Shown: positions 1,729-55,098 of the stretch, piece after piece
How positions within the stretch are numbered: position 1 is the first letter of the stretch
Layout: the number at the start of each line of letters is the position of its first letter
Origin: Mollicutes bacterium
Lineage (GTDB): Bacteria; Bacillota_I; Bacilli_A; Izemoplasmatales; Izemoplasmataceae
DNA length: 62,009 bases
Assembly: GCA_003551005.1 (NCBI GenBank)
Contig: PULR01000024.1
Coordinates: 1 to 62,009 of the forward strand
Direction of reading: 5' to 3'
Made by a program: the position numbers and the translations under genes
The notes under the pieces: generated by a model
Databases searched by the model: none
What the model was told of the DNA's origin: nothing
What the model saw: the letters and a program-made list of their open reading frames with translations, nothing else

Positions 1729-1757
1729 TTGACCGGAATATAACAGGCAAATATAAT
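1729..1757 (+). promoter_or_regulatory. promoter of arsR-copA operon
   Basis: TTGACC (1729-1734), 17-base spacer, TATAAT (1752-1757). The ribosome site of the regulator gene follows at once (AAGGAGGA near 1768). An ArsR dimer would be expected to bind around this spacer, but no clean inverted repeat is obvious. Confidence 0.75.
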
Positions 1758-1779
1758 GATTTTGCAAAGGAGGAAGACC

Positions 1780-2151
1780 ATGGACGATATTGAAACGCTC
1801 AGTCTGTTAGGAAACGTCAGCCGATTACGCATTGTGGCTTTGCTTGTGGATTCTGAACTGTGTGTCTGTGAACTTGAAGAAATCACCGGCATTCGCCAGG
1901 TGAACATATCGAAGCACCTGCATCGTCTGCGACAAGCAGGCGTTGTCTCTTCTCGCAGAGAAAAGCAGCGTGTCTTCTATTATCTTACGGAGACATTTCT
2001 CTCCAGGGAAGCGCTGCTCTCCCATATCGTCAATCTCGTCTCTGAGATCCCGCAGTTGAGGACGGACCGGGAACGTTTTCTTGCACACGAGCAGGATAAG
2101 GACGAGCAGGTCTATGTATGCAACGTCTTCAAAAAGGAGAATCTGTCATGA
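1780..2151 (+). CDS. ArsR-family metalloregulator
   Basis: A 123-residue winged-helix repressor of the ArsR/SmtB family, probably sensing a thiophilic metal and controlling the ATPase that follows. The N-terminal half has the ELCVCELEEIT segment near residue 24, the Cys-x-Cys site of the alpha-3 metal-binding type, followed by the recognition helix region (RQVNISKHLHRLRQAG). A Cys also lies near the C-terminus. The ATG at 1780 has AGGAGG seven bases upstream and lies behind a near-consensus promoter; the longer frame from 1756 overlaps the -10 box. The stop overlaps the ATPase start (ATGA at 2148), so the two are cotranslated. An ArsR, rather than CopY or CsoR, next to a Cu+ pump is less usual. 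Confidence 0.9.
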   Translation: MDDIETLSLLGNVSRLRIVALLVDSELCVCELEEITGIRQVNISKHLHRLRQAGVVSSRREKQRVFYYLTETFLSREALLSHIVNLVSEIPQLRTDRERFLAHEQDKDEQVYVCNVFKKENLS

Positions 2152-4541
2152 TCAAGAAAAAAACCATACGGGTCGAAGGCATGACTTGCGCCATGTGCGC
2201 GAAAACCATCGAGAACAGTTTCGAGGATTTCAGCGGCGTCGATGTACGGGTGAACGTCGGCGCGAACCAGGTGGTCGTCCGCTACGACGACGAGTACACA
2301 CGGCTGACCGATATCGCCCAGCGCATCGACGACGCTGGATATAAGGCGGTCCTTGATGCATCCTTTAAAGATGAGAAGGATGTCCGTCAACGCATGAAAC
2401 GAGAAGTCTTCCTCGCTATCGGTCTGTCCCTGCCGTTGTTGTGGGCGATGTTCGGACATCTCGCATGGTTCGATTTCCTCTATGTCCCCTCGCTTTTCAT
2501 GGATGGGCGTTTCCAGCTTGTCCTGGCCGGCGTGGTTCAGTTCTACATCGGCAAACGATTCTACGTCGGGGCCTTCAACTCGCTGAAGCACAAAACACTG
2601 GGAATGGACATTCTCGTGGTGCTCGGCACCACGAGTGCCTATCTTTACAGCGTATATTTGCTGCTCGACCATTTGATAGCCGGCGGGGCTCATCAACCGG
2701 AGTACTTCTTTGAAATCAGCGCATTGATTATCACAATGGTCCTCGTGGGGAACTACTTTGAGCATCTTGCCAAGGAGAGGACCACGGATGCGCTGGTGGA
2801 ACTTGTCAACCTCGGGGCAAAGGAAGCGCGCCGACTTAAAGATGGACAAGAAGAAAAAGTTCCCATCGAAGCTGTCGAGGTCGGCGACCGCCTCGTCGTG
2901 CATGCGCATGAGAAGATTCCGACTGACGGCGTCATTGTCGAAGGGGAGACCTATATCGACGAATCGATGCTGACGGGAGAAAGCGTTCCAGTTGAGAAGG
3001 CTGTTGGCGAAGAGGTCATCGGTGCGACGTTGAATGATCAGGAGCGTATTGTTATTGAAGCGACCAAGGTAGGAAGCGACACGATGCTCTCCAAGATCAT
3101 CGAGACGGTCGAGGAGGCCAGCGCTCACAAGCCACCCATCCAGCGGACCGCGGACCGTGTGTCTGCGTTCTTTGTTCCGTTGGTGGTGCTCATCGCCCTT
3201 GGCAACTTTCTGGTTCACTATTTCCCCTTGGACTATCCGTTTACAGTATCGTTCACGCGTAGCGTCGCCATCCTCGTCATCAGCTGTCCCTGCGCGCTCG
3301 GGCTCGCGACACCGACCTCCATATTAGTCGGAAACGCCAAGGCTGCACGCAACCATGTTCTCTACAAGGGCGGAGAGTTCTTTGAACGTGCCAACGCCAT
3401 CGAGGCCATTGCTTTCGACAAAACCGGGACGCTGACCGAAGGAAAACCGCAGGTCACGGATTATGAAGGCGATTCTGATGTCCTGGATTATCTGTATAGC
3501 ATTGAACAAGAATCCACCCATCCGATTGCCACGGCAGTTGCGGAATATGCCGAAACCCAAGGCGCTTCGCCGCTTCCCGTGAAGGGTCTGGAAACCCATA
3601 AGGGCAAAGGCGTCGAGGCGGAGGTCGACGGTGTCCATGTGGCTGTGGGTAATCAGCGCTTGATGGCGACCATCGACGCAGACCATTCTGAATTTGACAA
3701 CCGGGCGGAGACATGGCTTTCACAGGCTAAAACGGTAAACTACGTCGCCCTGGATGGAAAAGTCCGGGCGGGCTATGCGGTTCGCGACGAAATCAAGCCG
3801 ACATCGCGTTCGGTCATTCAGTCCATGCACGCAAGAGGTTTAAAAGCGATCATGGTGACGGGCGACCATCAACGGGTCGCTGATGCGATTGCTGGAGAAC
3901 TTGGCATTGATGAAGTCTATGCCGAGGTCCTGCCACATGAAAAAGCGGAAATTGTCCAAACCATCCAGCAAGACGGCACCGTCGTCGCCTTTGTCGGGGA
4001 CGGCATCAACGACGCACCCGCTCTCAAGCTTGCGGACATCGGCATCGCGATGGGCTATGGTACCGATGTCGCCATTGAATCCAGCGACGTTACCATCATG
4101 AGTCAGAATCTGGGCCTCGTGCTCAAAGCTATCGCGATGAGCAAGGCTACGCTTAGAAACATCCGCCAGAATTTCTTCTGGGCCTTCTCCTATAATCTGG
4201 TCGCCATCCCGCTGGCCGCGACTGGAAGACTTTCGATGCTGCTTGCCGCTGTCGCCATGGCATTCAGCTCGATTATGGTTGTTCTTAATGCGTTGCGACT
4301 CAAGACGACGAAACTGCCCGAATTCTCCATAGCATCCAAAGAAGGAGGTGACAGGATGGATTTCAAAGTTCCCGATATGAGCTGCGGTCATTGCAAGATG
4401 ACCATTGAGCAGGCCTTGACCGCTGCCGGTTATAAACAGGTACAGATTGACCTTGAGCGTGGAATCGTATCTGTTGAGACTGAAGACGAAGCCGCTGTAC
4501 GTAAGATTATCGAGGATAATGGCTACGCAGTGAGTGATTAG
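2148..4541 (+). CDS. copA: Cu(+)-exporting P1B-type ATPase, with fused C-terminal HMA domain
   Basis: A 797-residue membrane pump that exports Cu+. An N-terminal heavy-metal domain carries GMTCAMC (Cys14, Cys17); eight membrane helices follow, with the ion-binding CPC in SCPCALGLATP near residue 380, the phosphorylation site DKTGT near residue 425 and the GDGIND hinge. The last helices contain SYN and MAFSS, the signature of the Cu+ (P1B-1) class. Unusually, a second HMA domain (DMSCGHC) is fused at the C-terminus, after residue 736. It starts by an ATGA overlap with the ArsR gene. The join to the C-terminal domain encodes a perfect Shine-Dalgarno (see the nested copZ entry), as if an ancestral copA-copZ pair became one frame. 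No other function fits. Confidence 0.95.
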   Translation: MIKKKTIRVEGMTCAMCAKTIENSFEDFSGVDVRVNVGANQVVVRYDDEYTRLTDIAQRIDDAGYKAVLDASFKDEKDVRQRMKREVFLAIGLSLPLLWAMFGHLAWFDFLYVPSLFMDGRFQLVLAGVVQFYIGKRFYVGAFNSLKHKTLGMDILVVLGTTSAYLYSVYLLLDHLIAGGAHQPEYFFEISALIITMVLVGNYFEHLAKERTTDALVELVNLGAKEARRLKDGQEEKVPIEAVEVGDRLVVHAHEKIPTDGVIVEGETYIDESMLTGESVPVEKAVGEEVIGATLNDQERIVIEATKVGSDTMLSKIIETVEEASAHKPPIQRTADRVSAFFVPLVVLIALGNFLVHYFPLDYPFTVSFTRSVAILVISCPCALGLATPTSILVGNAKAARNHVLYKGGEFFERANAIEAIAFDKTGTLTEGKPQVTDYEGDSDVLDYLYSIEQESTHPIATAVAEYAETQGASPLPVKGLETHKGKGVEAEVDGVHVAVGNQRLMATIDADHSEFDNRAETWLSQAKTVNYVALDGKVRAGYAVRDEIKPTSRSVIQSMHARGLKAIMVTGDHQRVADAIAGELGIDEVYAEVLPHEKAEIVQTIQQDGTVVAFVGDGINDAPALKLADIGIAMGYGTDVAIESSDVTIMSQNLGLVLKAIAMSKATLRNIRQNFFWAFSYNLVAIPLAATGRLSMLLAAVAMAFSSIMVVLNALRLKTTKLPEFSIASKEGGDRMDFKVPDMSCGHCKMTIEQALTAAGYKQVQIDLERGIVSVETEDEAAVRKIIEDNGYAVSD
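4356..4541 (+). CDS. nested in-frame CopZ-like copper chaperone (internal start in copA)
   Basis: An in-frame ATG at 4356 is preceded by AAGGAGGTG (4342-4350) with five bases between, better than most ribosome sites in this window. Initiation there would give a free 61-residue heavy-metal-associated domain beginning MDFKVPDMSCGHC, the size of a stand-alone CopZ chaperone, which hands Cu+ to the ATPase. The linker read from the ribosome site in the long protein is Lys-Glu-Gly-Gly-Asp-Arg. That the domain exists is clear; that it is made separately is an inference from the ribosome site. Confidence 0.55.
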   Translation: MDFKVPDMSCGHCKMTIEQALTAAGYKQVQIDLERGIVSVETEDEAAVRKIIEDNGYAVSD

Positions 4542-41494: not shown

Positions 41495-42685
41495 ATGAAA
41501 ACTATCAAAGAGCTTTACAAAATCGGTAAAGGGCCTTCCAGCTCGCATACCATGGGGCCGGAAAAAGCCTGTCGGGATTTTCAGCAAAGGCACCCGGCTG
41601 ACGCCTACCGAGCGGTTCTCCATGGTTCTTTGAGCATGACGGGTCGTGGCCATTTGACCGATCGGATCATAAAAGAGACGCTTGTGAACGTGGAGGTTGT
41701 CTTCAGCGATGCCTTCGCCGAAGAACACCCCAACACACTCGATCTCTTCGCTTTTGACAATGACCGGGAAATCGCTTCAGATCGGTATTTTAGCATTGGT
41801 GGCGGGGATATCCTCCGGGCGGGAGAAGCGTCGGTTGAATCACAGCCGATCTACCCCCACCGGACCTTTGAGGAGATTGTCGAATACTGTCGTGATGAAG
41901 GTCTGGACTATGCCGGCTATATCAGGCGACATGAAGGACCTTCTATCGATGAATTCCTGCAAACGGTTTTCGAGGCGATGGAGACAGCCGTCGATGAAGG
42001 TCTGCACAAGCAGGGCGAGCTTCCCGGAGCCTTGGCTTTGAAACGCAAGGCCAGAAGCCTGCACGAGCGAGCCCGGCGCGAAACGGACCCTTCCGACAAA
42101 AGAATCGCCATTCTCGGGGCTTATGCTTTTGCCGTTGGTGAGGAGAACGCCTCCGGAGGGACGATTGTCACAGCACCGACCTGCGGAGCCAGCGGGGTTC
42201 TCCCGGCAGTTCTCCTCTATGCCCGTCGCCACCAAGGTTACAGCGTCGGAAAACTGGTGGATGCTTTGGCTGTCGCGGGTCTGTTCGGCAATTTCATCAA
42301 GACACATGCTTCAATCAGTGGCGCGGAAGCCGGCTGCCAGGCAGAAGTCGGCAGTGCCTGCGCAATGGCTGCTGCGGCCCATGCGCATCTTCGCGGCCAT
42401 GATCTTTCGGCGATCGAGTATGCGGCGGAAGTCGCGCTCGAGCATCATCTGGGCCTGACGTGCGACCCAGTCATGGGATATGTTCAGATTCCGTGTATCG
42501 AACGCAATGCCGCAGCTGCTTTGCGTGCGGTCGATGCTAGCCGTTTGGCCGCTCATCTGAGCGATTTCCGTAAGATCACCTTCGATTATGTCGTTGAAAC
42601 CATGTATGAGACCGGGCGGGACTTACCGGCCCATTACCGGGAGACCGGCATGGGAGGACTCGCCAAGCGCTACAAGCTCAAATGA
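41495..42685 (+). CDS. sdaA: L-serine ammonia-lyase, iron-sulfur type, single chain
   Basis: This enzyme deaminates L-serine to pyruvate with a [4Fe-4S] cluster. The 396-residue chain has the beta domain first (KIGKGPSSSHTMGP near residue 10, SMTGRGHLTD near residue 47) and the alpha domain next (ENASGGTIVTAPTCGASG near residue 216, GAEAGCQAEVGSACAM near residue 275, LTCDPVMG near residue 325), so all four candidate cluster Cys residues are kept. It is shorter than the E. coli single-chain enzyme (about 454) because of a compact beta domain. It ends with an ATGA overlap with the RlmD-like gene. Confidence 0.95.
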   Translation: MKTIKELYKIGKGPSSSHTMGPEKACRDFQQRHPADAYRAVLHGSLSMTGRGHLTDRIIKETLVNVEVVFSDAFAEEHPNTLDLFAFDNDREIASDRYFSIGGGDILRAGEASVESQPIYPHRTFEEIVEYCRDEGLDYAGYIRRHEGPSIDEFLQTVFEAMETAVDEGLHKQGELPGALALKRKARSLHERARRETDPSDKRIAILGAYAFAVGEENASGGTIVTAPTCGASGVLPAVLLYARRHQGYSVGKLVDALAVAGLFGNFIKTHASISGAEAGCQAEVGSACAMAAAAHAHLRGHDLSAIEYAAEVALEHHLGLTCDPVMGYVQIPCIERNAAAALRAVDASRLAAHLSDFRKITFDYVVETMYETGRDLPAHYRETGMGGLAKRYKLK

Positions 42686-44040
42686 AAGAAGGGGTTGGAT
42701 TGGTCGAGAAAAATTCGTATCACGATGTCACCTTCGTCGACATGACGCATGACGCCATGGGCGTCTGCCGTGTCGAAGGTTTCCCTTTGTTTGTGAAGGG
42801 CGCCTTGAAGGGTGAGAAGGCAACCATCAAGGTCATCAAGGTGAATAAGAACTTCGGTTTCGGCCGGTTGATTGAACTGAAGGAGGCCTCCCCCTTCCGC
42901 AAACAACCGATCTGTGATCATTTTGCTGCTTGCGGTGGCTGCGACACTATGCACATGAGTTATGAGATGCAGCTGCAATTCAAGCGTCATCGTGTCCAGG
43001 AGACGCTGCGCAAGCTTGGCGGCATTGAGGTTGAAGTCGAAGACACCATTCCGATGACCAATCCCTACTATTATCGAAACAAGGCTCTCGTTCCTTTTGG
43101 TGTCCGGGGTGGGCGGACGGTCGCCGGACTTTATCGCCCCCGCTCGCATGACATTGTCGATATCCAGCGATGCCATATCTACCCGAGGGTCTTCACCGAC
43201 ATCATTCGTTTCGTCCGCAATGTTCTTCAGGAGCAGTCCACGCCCATCTATCAGGGCGGCAAGGGTCCCGCCTTTCGTGGTTTAATGTTGCGCAGAAGCG
43301 CACAATATGGCGAAATTTCAATTGTTTTAATCGCCACCCGGGAGATGTTCCCGGGCCGGGATGTTCTCGTCAAGCGACTGCTTGATGCATACCAGAAAAT
43401 CGTCTCCATCGTGGTCAGTGTCAATCCTGACAAGACGAATGTCATGCTGGGTAAAAAAAGCCGGACGCTGCACGGAAAGGATAACATCCGCGACCGTCTC
43501 TTCGGTTTTGAATACAACATCTCGCACCGGTCTTTCTATCAGGTGAATCCTACCCAGACAGAGGCTCTCTACCGCCTCGCGCTCGAGTTCGCATCCCTCC
43601 ATGGTGAAGAATTCGCCGTGGATGTCTACTCAGGCATCGGCACATTGACCCTGCCCATCTCCAGGCGGGTCAGGGAAGCGCACGGTATCGAAAGTGTCCC
43701 GGAAGCGACGCAGGATGCGAGACGCAACGCAGAAGCGAACCAAGTCGAGAACGTCACATTCCACACGGGTCAGGCGAAGGATCTTCTACCGACCTTGGTT
43801 AGGAAGGCTGACGTCGTTTTCCTTGATCCGCCCAGGAAAGGATGTGAGCGTGAAGTTCTCGATGCCATCATCGACAGCAACATATCAAGGGTTGTTTATG
43901 TTTCCTGCAACGTCTCGACCCAAGCGCGGGATGCCGCCCGTCTTGTCGATGCCGATTACCGTGTCCGCAAAGTGAGGCCCGTCGACATGTTTCCGCAGAC
44001 AAGCCACATCGAGACCGTGATGCTTCTGGAAAAAGAATAG
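42682..44040 (+). CDS. 23S rRNA (uracil-5-)-methyltransferase, RlmD/TrmA family
   Basis: A 452-residue RNA methyltransferase that transfers methyl from SAM to uracil C5. An N-terminal TRAM domain (residues 10-70) is followed by the iron-sulfur motif CDHFAACGGC (near residue 75) with a fourth Cys in QRCHIYPR. The SAM domain has VDVYSGIGTLTLP near residue 314, DPPRKGC near residue 382 and the catalytic Cys in VYVSCNVST near residue 407. ATG 42682 overlaps the serine dehydratase stop; TTG 42700 with GAAGGGG upstream is an equal candidate. A second homologue lies at 46788; which one modifies U1939, U747 or tRNA U54 cannot be told. Confidence 0.92.
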   Translation: MKEGVGLVEKNSYHDVTFVDMTHDAMGVCRVEGFPLFVKGALKGEKATIKVIKVNKNFGFGRLIELKEASPFRKQPICDHFAACGGCDTMHMSYEMQLQFKRHRVQETLRKLGGIEVEVEDTIPMTNPYYYRNKALVPFGVRGGRTVAGLYRPRSHDIVDIQRCHIYPRVFTDIIRFVRNVLQEQSTPIYQGGKGPAFRGLMLRRSAQYGEISIVLIATREMFPGRDVLVKRLLDAYQKIVSIVVSVNPDKTNVMLGKKSRTLHGKDNIRDRLFGFEYNISHRSFYQVNPTQTEALYRLALEFASLHGEEFAVDVYSGIGTLTLPISRRVREAHGIESVPEATQDARRNAEANQVENVTFHTGQAKDLLPTLVRKADVVFLDPPRKGCEREVLDAIIDSNISRVVYVSCNVSTQARDAARLVDADYRVRKVRPVDMFPQTSHIETVMLLEKE

Positions 44041-44103: not shown

Positions 44104-44418
44104 TTACTTCTTTTGTTCTTTGCAGCAATCGTCGTCCTTCTCGCAGGGCTCAGGCTCCGTTTCGGAAAGAGCGATAAGATCCTCTCCCATTTTCCGCAAG
44201 GCATCGCGTTTAGCCTTGTAGTGCTGGAAATGTCCACTGCGCTCATTTTCAACTAAACCTTGCTGCTTGAGAATCCTCAGGTGTTGGGAAATAGCGGATT
44301 CCGTCACCTGAAAATGTTCGGCAAGACCTTTGACGCAATAGGATTTCTTCAGCAATAACTGAATGATATTGTATCGAGTCTTTTCTCCAATCGCTGTAAA
44401 GCGTTTGACTTCTTCCAT
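44104..44418 (-). CDS. ArsR-family regulator with Cys-rich tail, divergent from heliorhodopsin
   Basis: A 104-residue winged-helix regulator. It begins MEEVKRFTAIGEKTRYNII, has the recognition helix region VTESAISQHLRILKQQGLV near residue 38, a Cys in the preceding helix (KSYCVKGLA), and an unusual acidic tail CEKDDDCCKEQKK with three Cys that could bind metal or sense redox state. ATG 44418 is nine bases after GGAGG; TTG 44439 is less likely. Its gene faces away from the heliorhodopsin gene with 161 bases between, so it may control itself and the rhodopsin. The ligand is unknown. Confidence 0.88.
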   Translation of the reverse strand: MEEVKRFTAIGEKTRYNIIQLLLKKSYCVKGLAEHFQVTESAISQHLRILKQQGLVENERSGHFQHYKAKRDALRKMGEDLIALSETEPEPCEKDDDCCKEQKK

Positions 44419-44579
44419 ATGATTCAACCTCCAATCCAATATATTAAGTTTAAGCTAAAATAATTATAACGTGTTGGATTAAGCTTGTCAATGACCATGC
44501 TCAGTTGTATTTTTTTAGGATTTACATCAGAAGGCGTGGTATAATGCAATAAATTGATAACAAACAGGGAGGGTTTTAA
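44419..44579. promoter_or_regulatory. divergent promoter region arsR / heliorhodopsin
   Basis: For arsR the promoter is perfect: TTGACA (44491-44486, minus strand), 17-base spacer, TATAAT (44468-44463). For the rhodopsin a TATAAT lies at 44540-44545 without a clear -35. Between arsR's -10 and its start an AT-rich stretch (44440-44462) holds TTAAGTTTAAGCTAAAATAA, an imperfect dyad in the style of ArsR operators, and TCCAAT/ATTGGA-like repeats flank it. Confidence 0.6.
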
Positions 44580-45371
44580 TTGAAAGCATTAACGCATGAA
44601 CGGCTCCGACGTTTCAACAAGATCATGGGCGGGCTGCATCTGGTGCAGGGTCTGCTCATGCTCATTCTGGCGACGACTGTGATTCAGACCATCGGGGAGT
44701 TCACACCGACCATCACGCTGTTCTATCTGGAGTTCGACCAGATGGAGCAGACGCTGGTGCTGGCTAGCGACGAGTTGTTCGAACTGCCTTTTGGTATCTT
44801 TGTGGCGCTGTTTTTGTTGCTATCGGCCGGTGCGCACGCGCTCATTGCTTTTCCGGAGCGGACGAACCGCATCTACCGAGAAGATCTTGAGAACGGCGTC
44901 AACAAGTTCCGCTGGTTCGAGTATGCGCTCAGTTCCTCGATCATGATCGTGCTGATCGCGACGCTGTTCGGCATCTACGATCTGGCTTCCTTGCTGCTGA
45001 TCTTCGTTCTCAATGCCTCGATGAACCTCTTCGGGCTGGTGATGGAACAGCTCAATGCGGGACGCGAAAAGAAAGACGTGCGCTGGGGCCCCTTCATCTA
45101 TGGTTCGATTGCCGGAATCGCACCGTGGGTCGTGATCCTGATGTACATGTTCGGCACCGGCGAGTTTGACATGGTACCCTGGTTCGTGTGGGCCATTGTG
45201 GGGACATATTTCGTGGCTTTCAACACCTTCCCGGTGAACATGGTCCTGCAGTACAAGGGTGTGGGACGCTGGTCCGATTATGTCTATGGAGAACGGGTCT
45301 ATATCATCCTCAGCCTGGTGGCCAAGAGCGTCCTGGCCTGGCTGGTCCTCTTCGGAGCGATGCAGCCTTAA
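44580..45371 (+). CDS. heliorhodopsin
   Basis: A 263-residue seven-helix retinal protein of the heliorhodopsin family, which binds retinal as a light sensor with inverted membrane topology (N-terminus inside). It matches the 48C12 type closely by eye: WFEYALSSSIMIVLIA at residues 112-127 with the counterion Glu114, NASMNLFG at 145-152, and the last-helix segment GERVYIILSLVAKSVLAW with the Schiff-base Lys249 and Ser245. His20 and His86 fit the two conserved His residues. The start is TTG 44580, six bases after AGGGAGGG. The gene stands alone between a divergent ArsR gene and a fluoride riboswitch; no retinal-synthesis gene is in the window. The family call is secure; the signalling role is unknown. 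Confidence 0.95.
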   Translation: MKALTHERLRRFNKIMGGLHLVQGLLMLILATTVIQTIGEFTPTITLFYLEFDQMEQTLVLASDELFELPFGIFVALFLLLSAGAHALIAFPERTNRIYREDLENGVNKFRWFEYALSSSIMIVLIATLFGIYDLASLLLIFVLNASMNLFGLVMEQLNAGREKKDVRWGPFIYGSIAGIAPWVVILMYMFGTGEFDMVPWFVWAIVGTYFVAFNTFPVNMVLQYKGVGRWSDYVYGERVYIILSLVAKSVLAWLVLFGAMQP

Positions 45372-45378
45372 GTTTTTT

Positions 45379-45407
45379 TTGCCACTTAGAATGCTCTGTG
45401 CTATATT
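45379..45407 (+). promoter_or_regulatory. promoter of fluoride-riboswitch unit
   Basis: TTGCCA (45379-45384), 17-base spacer, TATATT (45402-45407) preceded by TGC (extended -10). It lies just after the heliorhodopsin stop; a T8 run there has no stem. Confidence 0.75.
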
Positions 45408-45418
45408 AAAGAGGATTG

Positions 45419-45488
45419 AGTGGCGATGGCGTTCGCCGAAACCGCCGAAAGGCTGATGACGCCTGCGTGTTTTTTGCGCAGGTTTTTT
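45419..45488 (+). ncRNA. fluoride riboswitch (crcB motif) with terminator
   Basis: The transcript from 45421 reads TGGCGATGGCGTTCGCC, then GAAACC, a GCC-GAAA-GGC hairpin and TGATGACGCC, which is the crcB consensus: P1 and the pseudoknot pieces GGCGATGG...ATGACGCC. The 3' side merges into a terminator, CCTGCG/CGCAGG (45462-45481) followed by T6. Fluoride binding should stabilise the aptamer and let transcription go on into the antiporter gene. Confidence 0.88.
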
Positions 45489-45528: not shown

Positions 45529-46719
45529 GTGTTGTTCAGTGCGGCCAGCGTCTTGTTCTTTGGTTTTCTAGGGGGTTTCCTCTTTGAGAAGATGAAGCTT
45601 CCCCCGTTAATCGGGATGCTGCTTGCGGGGATCGTCATCGGCCCGTCCGGGTTCGATCTGCTCAGTGACGCCCTGCTCGAGGTGGCGCACGATCTGCGGG
45701 TAGTGGCGCTGATCATCATTCTGCTGCGGGCGGGGCTCGGGTTGGATCGTTCACGACTCGGGGAGACCGGAAAGCGTTCGTTGCCGCTCGCGATCATTCC
45801 GAATCTTCTGGAAGGCTTGTCGCTGGCGGTGCTTGCCATGTGGTTCTTTGAGTTCACGTTCGTCCAGGGGGCGATTCTGGGGTTCATTGTTGCGGCCGTC
45901 TCCCCAGCTGTGGTGGTGCCGGCGATGCTGAATCTGATGGACCGCAAAATCGGTATGAAACGCAAGCTTCCGGTTGTGGTGCTGACAGCGGCTTCGCTGG
46001 ACGATGTTTTCGCCATTGCGTTGTTCTCTTCCTTTCTTGGACTCTATCTGGGCACGCAGAGCAGCTTCGGTCTGCAGCTTTTCAATGTACCGCTGGCGAT
46101 TTTCCTAGGTGTATTGCTAGGCCTGTTGGTCGGGCTTGTGCTGCTCGTGTTCTTTCGGCGCTTTCGTATCCGGGATAGCCGCAAGGTAGTGCTGCTTTTG
46201 GCGGTGTCGATGTTTCTGGTCACCCTGGAAGAGAGACTCGAGGATGTCGTCATGGTCTCCGCCTTTCTCGGGGTGATGGCGATCGGGGTCGTGATCGCGG
46301 AAGGGAAATCCCCCTTGGCGACTCGCTTGTCGATCAAACTCTCGAAGGTCTGGGTTTTTGCGCAGATTCTGTTATTCGTGCTGGTTGGCGCCGCGGTCGA
46401 TGTCTCCATCGCTTTAGAGGCCGGCCTGCTGGGAATCGGGTTCGTCTTCTTTGGGCTTTTCATGCGCAGTATCGGGGTGCTGATCGCCACCTCGCGCAGT
46501 CGGCATCCCTGGCGGGAGCGGCTGTTCATCGTCGCCTCCTATTGGCCGAAGGCCACGGTCCAGGCCGCGGTCGGTGCGGTGCCGCTCGCCATGGGGGTCG
46601 CCGGAGGGGAGCTGATTCTGGCGATTTCGGTGCTGAGCATCCTGCTGAGTGCTCCGCTTGGCGCTTTCGCCATCAAACGCCTCACCCCGTTCTGTCTGGA
46701 CCATCCTAGTGAAGCTTGA
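45529..46719 (+). CDS. cation/proton antiporter under fluoride riboswitch control
   Basis: A 396-residue membrane antiporter of the monovalent cation:proton (CPA) superfamily with about 12 helices. It starts MLFSAASVLFFGFLGG, has LPPLIGMLLAGIVIGP near residue 26, VSPAVVVPAML near residue 125 and the acidic SLDDVFAIALFSS near residue 154, where the ion-binding Asp pair sits. GTG 45529 is nine bases after AAGGAG. Fluoride riboswitches often control CrcB, CLC-F or Na+/H+ antiporter-like genes, so this gene probably answers fluoride stress, either by exporting fluoride or by managing the proton load. Its true ions are not known. Confidence 0.85.
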   Translation: MLFSAASVLFFGFLGGFLFEKMKLPPLIGMLLAGIVIGPSGFDLLSDALLEVAHDLRVVALIIILLRAGLGLDRSRLGETGKRSLPLAIIPNLLEGLSLAVLAMWFFEFTFVQGAILGFIVAAVSPAVVVPAMLNLMDRKIGMKRKLPVVVLTAASLDDVFAIALFSSFLGLYLGTQSSFGLQLFNVPLAIFLGVLLGLLVGLVLLVFFRRFRIRDSRKVVLLLAVSMFLVTLEERLEDVVMVSAFLGVMAIGVVIAEGKSPLATRLSIKLSKVWVFAQILLFVLVGAAVDVSIALEAGLLGIGFVFFGLFMRSIGVLIATSRSRHPWRERLFIVASYWPKATVQAAVGAVPLAMGVAGGELILAISVLSILLSAPLGAFAIKRLTPFCLDHPSEA

Positions 46720-46787
46720 GTCGTACCGTTTCTGTGCATGTGTTACACTATTTTTAAAGACATCCATTGAAAAAAGGAGGGCGGCCC

Positions 46788-48155
46788 ATGGAATCTCAAC
46801 TGGAAATCGGCCAGGAAGTTCTCGTGACCATTAAGTCGATCGGCATTAACGGCGAAGGCGTGGGCTTCTACAAGCGACAGGTTGTCTTCGTGACCGATGC
46901 CATTCCGCCCGAGCAGGTCGTCGTCCGTGTCGTAGACCTCAAGAAAGGCTACGCCGTGGGAGAGCCGGTTCGCTTCAAGAAACACGCCTATTACCGGCGA
47001 CGTCCTTTCTGCAGGCATTACGGAACGTGCGGCGGTTGTCAGCTTCAGCACGCCGATTATGAGGAACAGCTCCGGCTGAAGCAGGAACTTCTCAAACAGA
47101 CCATCGAACGCTATGCAGACCTGCAGCCTGGGGATTACCGGTTGCACCGCTACGAACCGCCCCTGAATCCACGGGCTTATCGACACAAGGCCCAGATGCC
47201 GGTGGAAAACACTTCGGATGGTCTGCAGACCGGATTGTACGCTCGCGGCGGCAAGGAATTCGTCCCGGTCGCTGCCTGTCCCGTGCAGCATCCTCGCATC
47301 AACGAGACGAACCAGGCGGTACTCGAGATTCTCGACCGCTATCGGGTCTACGCTTTCGATCCTTCCCGTATGCGGGGGATGCTCCGCTATATCGTGACCC
47401 GTATCGGTTCTTCACGCGACGAGATTCAGGTGACCCTGGTCGTCACCCTCTTCAACAAGTTTCTCCACAAGGTCGCAAGAGAGATTCTCGAACTGCCCAA
47501 CGTCGTGGGGGTCGCCGTTTCCAAGAATCATGATGCGGCGAATCCGAACGTCTTCGGCGAGACCTATGAAGTGCTGGCCGGCAGGGAGGTCATCGACGAG
47601 CGTCTCGGCGGTGTCCGGTATGCGTTGAACCCGAAGGCGTTCTTTCAGCTGAACCCCCCTGAAGCCAAAAGGATGTACGATTATGTCGGCTCGTTGCTGC
47701 CGCGGGGTGAGAGCCTGCTGGATCTGCACACCGGAAGCGGAGGAATGGCGCTTTATTTCGCGGATCGGTTCAAGCAGGTCGTCGGCATCGACAGCGACCC
47801 CTCCTCGATCAGCAGCGCGGAGGCGAATGCCAGGGCCAACGGTATGGAAGGGGCGACCTTCCGGGTCTTCGATGCCGGGAGGTATCTTAAACGCACACCG
47901 GGTGCATCGTTTGATGTCGTGGTGATGGATCCGCCACGTTCCGGTCTCGACCGCGAGACCATCTCCGGACTGCTTGCCTCCCCGCCGCAGACACTCATCT
48001 ATGTCTCCTGCAACCCGAGCACCCTGGCGAAGGATCTCGGACGCTTGAAAAAACAGTTTTGCATCGAGTCCATCAAGCCCTTCGATATGTTCCCCCAGAC
48101 GTCCCAGGTTGAATCCGTGACGCATTTGAGTAGGCGCAAGGAGACTCCGTCATGA
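46788..48155 (+). CDS. 23S rRNA (uracil-5-)-methyltransferase, RlmD/TrmA family
   Basis: A 455-residue second member of the family at 42682. It has the TRAM domain (residues 1-62), the cluster motif CRHYGTCGGC near residue 78, ACPVQHPRINE with the fourth Cys, LLDLHTGSGGMAL near residue 310, MDPPRSGLD near residue 384 and the catalytic Cys in IYVSCNPST near residue 406. ATG 46788 has AAAGGAGGG eight bases upstream; the frame from 46767 covers that site. It overlaps the next gene by ATGA. Two homologues six kilobases apart suggest division of rRNA targets, as for RlmCD-like enzymes in Bacillota. Confidence 0.92.
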   Translation: MESQLEIGQEVLVTIKSIGINGEGVGFYKRQVVFVTDAIPPEQVVVRVVDLKKGYAVGEPVRFKKHAYYRRRPFCRHYGTCGGCQLQHADYEEQLRLKQELLKQTIERYADLQPGDYRLHRYEPPLNPRAYRHKAQMPVENTSDGLQTGLYARGGKEFVPVAACPVQHPRINETNQAVLEILDRYRVYAFDPSRMRGMLRYIVTRIGSSRDEIQVTLVVTLFNKFLHKVAREILELPNVVGVAVSKNHDAANPNVFGETYEVLAGREVIDERLGGVRYALNPKAFFQLNPPEAKRMYDYVGSLLPRGESLLDLHTGSGGMALYFADRFKQVVGIDSDPSSISSAEANARANGMEGATFRVFDAGRYLKRTPGASFDVVVMDPPRSGLDRETISGLLASPPQTLIYVSCNPSTLAKDLGRLKKQFCIESIKPFDMFPQTSQVESVTHLSRRKETPS

Positions 48156-53354: not shown

Positions 53355-53567
53355 AGAGTGCTTACGTTAGGTGAGGCTCCTATACAGATAGACGCTGCTG
53401 CCCGGAAATGTCGAAAGATGCCAACGGGTCAACAGACACTGCCGACTTAAGGCTTGTCTAATGCAGCTGGCGGAAGCCAACGCTGTATAGTGCCAAAACT
53501 CAACGAAGGTAAGATGGTTATCTGAGGTTTTGGATAATCTGAGCCTGCCGTTGAGGCAGGCTTTTTT
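53355..53567 (+). ncRNA. M-box magnesium riboswitch (ykoK leader)
   Basis: The aptamer carries the conserved ykoK blocks GTTAGGTGAGGCTCCTATA (53366-53384), ACGCTGCTGCCC, GCCAACGGGTCAACAG, TAATGCAGCTGG and TGTATAGTGCCAAAACTC, in the right order and spacing; CTTAC/GTAAG close the P1 helix (53361-53365 with 53509-53513). The expression platform ends in a terminator, GCCTGCC/GGCAGGC (53543-53561) with T6. High Mg2+ should favour the terminator and shut off mgtE. Confidence 0.95.
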
Positions 53568-53592
53568 GATAGTCAGCCAAAGGAGGTGTGGT

Positions 53593-53670
53593 ATGGACAG
53601 TAGTCATTATCCGCTCGAGTCGTCGAGGGTTGCACGTTTGTATCTTGTCCTGTATCGCTTGCTTGTGTGA
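53593..53670 (+). CDS. 25-residue micro-ORF between M-box and mgtE
   Basis: ATG 53593 lies six bases after AAAGGAGGTG and opens a 25-codon frame (MDSSHYPLESSRVARL, then a hydrophobic Tyr/Leu-rich end) that stops at 53670, 30 bases before mgtE. Its ribosome site is stronger than that of many real genes here. It could be a leader peptide that adds a translation-based check on mgtE, or a small membrane peptide. There is no known family. Confidence 0.45.
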   Translation: MDSSHYPLESSRVARLYLVLYRLLV

Positions 53671-53700
53671 GAAACATGAAAACCCAAAGGAGGAAACACC

Positions 53701-55098
53701 ATGCTTAAAGAGAACATGAGAATCGTGAACGAAATCCGTGAAATGATCAACGAAAGCGAGACCAGAAAGCTCAAGGAAGTCATCAATGAAATCGAGGACT
53801 ACAATCTAGCGGACTTGATTGAAATCCTGGAGCCAAAGTACCAAGTGGTCGTGTTCCGCCTGCTGGAAAAAGACAAGGCCATCGAGGTCTTCGAGCACAT
53901 TGAACCGGAAGTCCAGCAGGATCTTTTGCAAAACTTCACCGACGAGAAAGCCGTGGAGTTTTTCAAGGGATTGGAACCGGACGACCGCGCCAAATTGATG
54001 GACGAGCTCCCCGCCAAGGTGGCCAAGCGCCTGCTCGCCTCCCTCTCGAATGAGGAGCGGGAATACACGAACCTTGTCATGGGTTATGACACCGGGACCG
54101 CCGGCAACATCATGACTCCCAAGTACATCCGGTTCAAGGAGAACCTGACCGTCGAAGAAGGGTTGAAGAGGCTCCGCGAGGTCGGCTCCGGCTATGAAAA
54201 CCTCTATCAGATCTATGTGACCGATAACAGCCGTCGCTTGATCGGGACTATCGAGCTGACGTCGCTGGTGACAGCCGATCCCAAGCAGAAAGTCTCCGAG
54301 GTCATGGTCACGGACCCCATCAGCGTCACCTACGACGTCCACGACGAAGTCGTCTCGAAGATGCTGCAGGAATCCGACCTGCTCTCCATCCCCGTCATCG
54401 ACAAGGAGAACCGTCTGCTGGGCGCCGTCACGGTTGACGACGCCATTGACGTGCTGGAAGAAGAAGCTCGCGAACAAGCGCTCAGCAACGCCGGTTTCGC
54501 GGACGTGGGCAAGCTGGAGATCGACCGCAGCCGCGTGCTGACCACCGGAAGCCTGCCCTGGGTCTGGCGCATCCGCATGCCCTATCTCATGCTGGCCATG
54601 GCCGGCGGATTGATGGCCGGGTTCTTCATCGAACGCTTCGAGGATACCCTGGCGCAATTCTATGCGCTGGCCTTCTTCATTCCCGTGATCATGGACATGG
54701 GCGGAAATGTCGGCACCCAGTCGTCGACCATTTTCACCCGGGCTGTCGTGCTTGGACAGATTGATTTCAAGCGTTTCCTCAAGCAATGGGGAAGGGAAAT
54801 CGCCATCGGGTTCACGATGGGCGTCATGACCGGCATCCTCGCCGGTGCGATTGTCTATCTCTGGCAGGGTTTCTTCGCAGGTTTCGAATATCCCATACAG
54901 CTGGCGCTCGTCATCGCGGGGGCCCTGGTCGTGACCATCACGGTCGCGAGCGCTGTGGGATTCATCGTCCCCTTTCTTCTCGTGAAACTCGGATTCGACC
55001 AGGCCGCCGGTTCCGTCCCCTTCATCACGACCATCAAGGACATCACCGGCATCCTGATCTATTTCTTGCTCGCGAACATGATTCTGCCCGTGATATGA
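53701..55098 (+). CDS. mgtE: magnesium transporter MgtE
   Basis: A 465-residue Mg2+ channel/transporter. The N domain (helical superhelix, residues 20-130, with LEPDDRAKLMDELP near residue 89), two CBS domains (IMTPKYIRFKENLTVEEGL near residue 139; VMVTDPISV near residue 202), the plug helix, and five membrane helices from about residue 285 can be seen; MDMGGNVGTQSSTIFTRA near residue 336 holds the pore motif. AAAGGAGG precedes the ATG. Expression is placed under Mg2+ control by the M-box upstream. The small membrane protein downstream is probably cotranslated. Confidence 0.97.
   Translation: MLKENMRIVNEIREMINESETRKLKEVINEIEDYNLADLIEILEPKYQVVVFRLLEKDKAIEVFEHIEPEVQQDLLQNFTDEKAVEFFKGLEPDDRAKLMDELPAKVAKRLLASLSNEEREYTNLVMGYDTGTAGNIMTPKYIRFKENLTVEEGLKRLREVGSGYENLYQIYVTDNSRRLIGTIELTSLVTADPKQKVSEVMVTDPISVTYDVHDEVVSKMLQESDLLSIPVIDKENRLLGAVTVDDAIDVLEEEAREQALSNAGFADVGKLEIDRSRVLTTGSLPWVWRIRMPYLMLAMAGGLMAGFFIERFEDTLAQFYALAFFIPVIMDMGGNVGTQSSTIFTRAVVLGQIDFKRFLKQWGREIAIGFTMGVMTGILAGAIVYLWQGFFAGFEYPIQLALVIAGALVVTITVASAVGFIVPFLLVKLGFDQAAGSVPFITTIKDITGILIYFLLANMILPVI

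Follow-up and report, generated by a model that had tools for sequence, protein, structure and literature searches.

The locus comprises a heliorhodopsin gene, an arsR-family regulator gene that diverges from it and, behind heliorhodopsin on the same strand, a fluoride riboswitch ahead of a cation:proton antiporter gene, the whole lying within an island flanked by RumA/TrmA-like methyltransferase genes (Table 1). It is carried on a contig of 62,009 nucleotides (PULR01000024.1, assembly GCA_003551005.1, positions 1 to 62,009), analyzed at its full length and called the window below, from an Izemoplasmatales-type Mollicutes metagenome-assembled genome (G000; 1.35 Mb, 96.7% complete). Mollicutes are wall-less bacteria, and heliorhodopsins are light-sensing membrane proteins whose cellular role is unsettled, with gene context as the main clue. 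Computation on the window and its relatives gave the identities of the genes and their residues, the sequences of promoters and riboswitches, and the patterns of conservation and co-occurrence.

Table 1. Features of the heliorhodopsin locus, in window coordinates
Feature	Position	Strand	Details
L-serine dehydratase	41495-42685	+	outer upstream flank of island
RumA/TrmA-like methyltransferase	42682-44040	+	upstream flank of island
arsR-family regulator	44104-44418	-	104 aa from ATG; Cys28, tail Cys92-x5-Cys98-Cys99; divergent from heliorhodopsin
Putative ArsR operator	44443-44460		ATTAAGT-N4-RCTAAAA, imperfect inverted repeat; in four congeners, over predicted arsR start site
arsR promoter	44463-44491	-	TTGACA 44491-44486, 17-bp spacer, TATAAT 44468-44463; 12/12 consensus matches
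Heliorhodopsin promoter	44537-44545	+	extended -10 TGGTATAAT, no good -35
Heliorhodopsin	44580-45371	+	263 aa; Glu114 counterion, Lys249 Schiff base, His20, His86, Ser245
Riboswitch-antiporter promoter	45379-45407	+	TTGCCA-17-TATATT; begins 8 bp past heliorhodopsin stop
Fluoride riboswitch aptamer	45413-45472	+	RF01734, 59.1 bits (gathering score 34); 41 bp past heliorhodopsin stop
Intrinsic terminator	45461-45483	+	overlaps aptamer 3' end; expected fluoride ON-switch
Cation:proton antiporter	45529-46719	+	PF00999 profile match; gene under riboswitch control
RumA/TrmA-like methyltransferase, second copy	46767-48155		closes island

A genuine heliorhodopsin

The heliorhodopsin gene starts at a TTG codon preceded by GGGAGGG (44567-44573). 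Its product matches the family profile over its full length (PF18761, 319.7 bits against a cut-off of 26.7, E=1.4e-95) as well as the NCBIfam equivalog NF038020 'HeR' (300.3 bits against 100), and aligns to solved heliorhodopsins with E values down to 4.5e-53. An AlphaFold model (pLDDT 88.9) used as a Foldseek query returned 10 matches at E<=0.001, all of them heliorhodopsins (E 4e-17 to 8e-14; the next match lies at 1.3e-3), so that the predicted model has the heliorhodopsin fold, distinct from that of type 1 rhodopsins. Glu114, Lys249, Ser245, His20 and His86 show no variation across 39 homologues. Lysines and arginines counted over hand-set membrane segments number 15 inside, on the N-terminal side, and 0 outside, in agreement with the inverted topology. 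The frame thus encodes a genuine heliorhodopsin, as the first-pass annotation had proposed from the counterion, the Schiff-base lysine and the two conserved histidines, and the protein would be expected to bind retinal. That annotation had also held that an insignificant family match, or loss of the arsR neighbor in all close relatives, would tell against it; the match is significant and the neighbor is kept in close relatives.

The solved heliorhodopsins 48C12 and TaHeR (Thermoplasmatales) share their fold and pocket residues with the window protein at 41-43% identity over the structural alignment, but their hosts and gene neighborhoods differ. The nearest database heliorhodopsins come from records titled Mollicutes bacterium, Candidatus Izimaplasma and Izemoplasmatales, and also from Clostridia, Proteiniclasticum and Trichococcus; Mollicutes bacterium isolates such as T1Sed10_57 presumably derive from soda-lake sediment. 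Within the window's family, 34 genomes carry heliorhodopsin, and in several of them the gene is present two or three times; identity to the window protein is 78% in the congeners G004 and G005 and 61% in G002. G009, G024 and G036, whose genomes measure no more than about 1 Mb, have three heliorhodopsin genes each, one in a deeply separate clade. The window gene is an ordinary heliorhodopsin of a known family, and its neighborhood is what is new.

As had been noted before, no retinal-synthesis gene lies nearby: a PSY-family synthase gene and a CrtI-family desaturase gene sit together on another contig of the host genome (contig 31, L203:7111-10976), divergently oriented and with a TIGR00297-like gene beside them. 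Despite these two genes, an endogenous retinal supply was set aside. No RPE65-type oxygenase was found in 61 genomes including the host's, where the control was positive; the host genome has no PF05834 lycopene cyclase, matches in relatives being mostly short and N-terminal; and a PF15461 search gave no match, with its positive control equally silent, so that this absence is not proven. Since no retinal-forming enzyme was found, the chromophore would either be supplied externally or be made by an enzyme that escaped detection, uptake from neighbors being the likeliest source.

A divergent ArsR regulator with a cysteine tail

The regulator belongs to the ArsR family (NF033788, 77.1 bits against a cut-off of 55; PF01022, E=2.7e-16, 59.6 bits against 22). 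The start codon listed for it, TTG at 44439, is probably wrong: a Shine-Dalgarno sequence, GGAGG, at 44428-44432 on the minus strand fits the ATG at 44418, where we therefore place the start. With this correction the three tail cysteines described in the first-pass annotation are Cys92, Cys98 and Cys99, and the perfect TTGACA-17-TATAAT promoter that it ascribed to arsR is indeed there; similar promoters can be read in G002, G004 and G005.

The protein shows no known ArsR/SmtB metal site, such as a CxC in the DNA-recognition region or the CC-x5-C of AfArsR. Cys28 lies in CVK instead of CVC, and all NCBIfam equivalogs of known metal sensors score below cut-off for this protein. The closest parallel is AfArsR, which has a three-Cys As(III) site (PMC11212059): both are ArsR helix-turn-helix proteins with three clustered C-terminal cysteines, and the cysteine spacing of the AfArsR site CCHGTRDC (CC-x5-C) recurs in the window protein, but reversed (C-x5-CC). 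Unlike the AfArsR type, the window's congeners carry longer Cys/His tails, and no metal-handling gene adjoins the window arsR. Cysteine tails occur in all four arsR orthologues, as C-x5-CC in the window genome, as three CC motifs plus His in G004 and G005 and as CC..C..C..CC in G002, while the protein changes fast, orthologues being 38-44% identical to the window ArsR. The regulator would probably use its Cys tail to sense a metal or metalloid that binds thiols. Elsewhere in the window, a second ArsR-type gene with the motif ELCVCELEE lies directly 5' of an apparent heavy-metal P-type ATPase gene (1756-4541); in contrast to the ArsR at heliorhodopsin, this is the usual metalloregulator-exporter pair.

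Divergent, orthologous arsR genes accompany heliorhodopsin in 4/5 heliorhodopsin-bearing genomes of the genus (G000, G004, G005 and G002). The fifth, G003, has heliorhodopsin without arsR, and neither gene was seen in G001, which is 64% complete. When six-frame open reading frames from ~139 heliorhodopsin loci, duplicates among them, were searched with a profile of 30 ArsR proteins, the divergent gene was absent from the other ~135. An adjacent divergent arsR is therefore confined to this genus among the loci searched, which rules it out as a general heliorhodopsin neighbor.

A putative operator that points to arsR autoregulation

In four arsR leaders we identified, from its conservation, a putative operator lying just downstream of the -10 box and ~80 bp from the heliorhodopsin -10. 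Across the genus the pattern occurs exactly once per genome in the four arsR carriers, always at arsR, and not at all in G001 and G003. Allowing up to one mismatch revealed no further target besides arsR apart from one extra site in G004, while a reversed control pattern gave 0-2 matches per genome. The heliorhodopsin promoter is separate: TG-N-TATAAT precedes the gene in several relatives both with and without arsR, the latter including G003, G007 and G022. No other operator-like element is conserved, and because this one covers the start site of arsR instead of the heliorhodopsin promoter, the conserved signal points to autoregulation. The same is suggested by G002, where ~640 bp and one minus-strand frame separate heliorhodopsin from arsR and where both the operator and the Cys tail are nevertheless kept. 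ArsR thus probably controls mainly its own gene.

The first-pass annotation had proposed that ArsR couples rhodopsin expression to metal or redox state, and that the divergent arrangement be sought in relatives. The arrangement is indeed retained in G004, G005 and G002, yet it is missing from G003 and from all loci examined beyond the genus; and while its retention in most congeners supports the coupling, the operator sits on the arsR start and heliorhodopsin has a promoter of its own. In its strongest form, this idea holds that control of heliorhodopsin through the shared divergent region is the real job of a metal- or redox-responsive ArsR. It finds support in the divergent arrangement, retained in 4/5 congeners, and in the close relatives of this ArsR not being found elsewhere. 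It also draws on the single operator per genome, which in G000, G004 and G005 leaves only the arsR and heliorhodopsin promoters within reach, and on a tail resembling the AfArsR As(III) site in reverse. We nonetheless consider it rather unlikely, given the distance between the operator and the heliorhodopsin -10, the lack of a second site that is conserved, the persistence of operator and tail in G002 across an intervening frame, and the similar promoters that drive heliorhodopsin in relatives devoid of arsR. Overall, metal or redox coupling of heliorhodopsin expression via ArsR is possible, and ArsR control of heliorhodopsin is a weakened, partly supported idea.

A fluoride-switched antiporter behind heliorhodopsin

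The aptamer downstream of heliorhodopsin, missed by the first-pass annotation, scores above the gathering threshold of the RF01734 covariance model and comes with an expression platform in the form of the overlapping terminator. The order heliorhodopsin-riboswitch-antiporter is found in 13 genomes of 5 genera (G000, G004, G005, G007, G012, G017, G019, G022, G028, G032, G034, G038 and G040) among the loci scanned with Rfam, and it extends to heliorhodopsins that share no more than 54-55% identity with the window protein. Relatives also have a TATAAT-like box in the same gap between heliorhodopsin and riboswitch. All 18 further riboswitch sites read out in the order and class precede an antiporter homologue (one, in G028, is also among the 13 genomes), and some of these units occupy the same RumA island although it lacks heliorhodopsin. 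More broadly, 120 related genomes have at most one fluoride riboswitch match each, and every site read out precedes a cation:proton antiporter. A second type of riboswitch is also present in the window, an M-box magnesium riboswitch (RF00380, 147 bits) that precedes the gene of a magnesium transporter, MgtE (53356-55098).

Na+/H+ antiporters are the commonest class linked to fluoride riboswitches after the exporters (PMC11139923), and the window shares with those systems the RF01734 aptamer, the terminator and the PF00999 antiporter. Here, in contrast, the unit stands directly behind heliorhodopsin, and the exporters were not found in the related genomes searched: CrcB is absent from 61 and CLC from 37, with working positive controls. 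The antiporter is therefore the only fluoride-linked transporter seen, making the riboswitch-antiporter unit a candidate fluoride defense that dispenses with the known exporters. No terminator was found in the gap between heliorhodopsin and this unit, so that heliorhodopsin transcripts would run into its riboswitch. Compared with the arsR neighbor, which is evolutionarily shallow and limited to one genus, the fluoride-switched antiporter is the longer-lived partner.

These observations raise the prospect that heliorhodopsin works with the antiporter in light-tuned ion or pH homeostasis, fluoride-dependent read-through linking their expression. A precedent exists in OcHeR, which modulates its neighboring transporter OmrDE (PMC11109279), and the breadth of the shared order, the lack of an intervening terminator and the scattering of the adjacency on the heliorhodopsin tree, where at least four changes are needed, are all in keeping with it. 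Yet the antiporter unit carries a promoter of its own and stands without an adjacent heliorhodopsin in many genomes, the two may be adjacent largely through inheritance of gene order, and riboswitch presence, rejected as a correlate, does not track heliorhodopsin in the window's family (p=1.0). We regard a working partnership of the two as distinctly unlikely.

Two RumA/TrmA-like genes bracket the heliorhodopsin-antiporter pair, and many members of the family retain this island. The neighbors could accordingly be inherited gene order with no functional link, heliorhodopsin alone being of consequence. The succession of serine dehydratase, RumA, antiporter and second RumA is indeed kept whether heliorhodopsin is present between them or absent, but arsR and the riboswitch-antiporter unit each stay at the junction while other flanks change. 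Inheritance as the sole explanation is possible and, on balance, doubtful.

Co-occurrence with class II photolyase

The host genome encodes a class II photolyase on contig 32, away from heliorhodopsin. Its best model is TIGR00591 phr2, which we take to be the class II photolyase model, at 464 bits, below the curated cut-off of 550. Among the 29 genomes of the window's family that are at least 80% complete, 25 have both photolyase and heliorhodopsin, 4 have neither and none has only one of the two (Fisher p=4e-5, uncorrected for kinship). Genes of the photolyase cluster, annotated from one representative, also lie within five genes of heliorhodopsin in 31 examined loci of other bacteria. The photolyase and riboswitch-antiporter associations are deeper than that of arsR in the same bacterial family, although the photolyase co-occurrence could mark no more than light-exposed lineages.

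The heliorhodopsin of Trichococcus flocculiformis, TfHeR (L109), binds a class II photolyase (PMC9769723). TfHeR is 72-73% identical to the window protein, and the window's host likewise encodes a class II CPD photolyase; the TfHeR photolyase is encoded in the same operon, whereas that of the window's host is not. Of three TfHeR residues shown to matter in binding photolyase, Arg162 is kept, Lys227 is replaced by Gly227 (with Lys226 beside it) and Glu97 by Arg97. Two changed residues out of three and the lack of gene adjacency argue against a photolyase partnership.

Recorded neighbors of heliorhodopsins

One survey groups heliorhodopsin neighbors into ten sets, including MerR regulators, photolyase, DUF2177 and DUF2238 (PMC11109279), and another study stresses redox genes (PMC8612252); a small set of recurrent neighbors, regulators among them, is common to these records and the window. 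The main texts of both make no mention of ArsR or antiporters, which their supplementary tables could list, and that of PMC11109279 makes none of riboswitches. In a wider search of the literature available, titles and abstracts, on which the judgment mainly rests, revealed no apparent link between heliorhodopsin and either ArsR or fluoride. An ArsR-like regulator is reported to be bound by Gloeobacter rhodopsin, which is a type 1 pump. A tocopherol-cyclase-like gene (PF14249), outside the ten groups of PMC11109279, lies directly 3' of heliorhodopsin on the same strand in 7/8 loci (L108:6820-7782, L043, L078, L095, L117, L129, L164 and L169).

Discussion

Taken together, our findings are best explained, with a probability that we put at roughly 55%, by a heliorhodopsin that acts as a light sensor with photolyase as its best-supported partner, an ArsR that is a genus-level autorepressor and heliorhodopsin transcription that reads through into the riboswitch. 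The heliorhodopsin gene looks functional and would have an extended -10 promoter of its own for transcription. The protein that it encodes most likely senses light and would act by touching a partner protein on the cytoplasmic side; for this bacterial family the best-supported candidate is the class II CPD photolyase, whose gene lies elsewhere in the genome. ArsR would be an addition made at the level of the genus that represses its own promoter through the 44443-44460 repeat across the start site, any effect on heliorhodopsin being secondary, and heliorhodopsin transcripts may continue into the fluoride riboswitch that precedes the antiporter gene.

A more ambitious proposal would join heliorhodopsin, the ArsR with its Cys tail and the antiporter under fluoride control into one stress module that reads light, thiophilic metal and fluoride at a single locus. 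Heliorhodopsin would directly modulate the antiporter, and fluoride would let the heliorhodopsin transcript reach into the antiporter gene; we find this very improbable.

As a clue to the role of heliorhodopsins the locus is useful, if modest: it names specific partners that can be tested and one exact candidate operator, and it draws attention to bacteria that have a fluoride riboswitch but lack the two known fluoride exporters.
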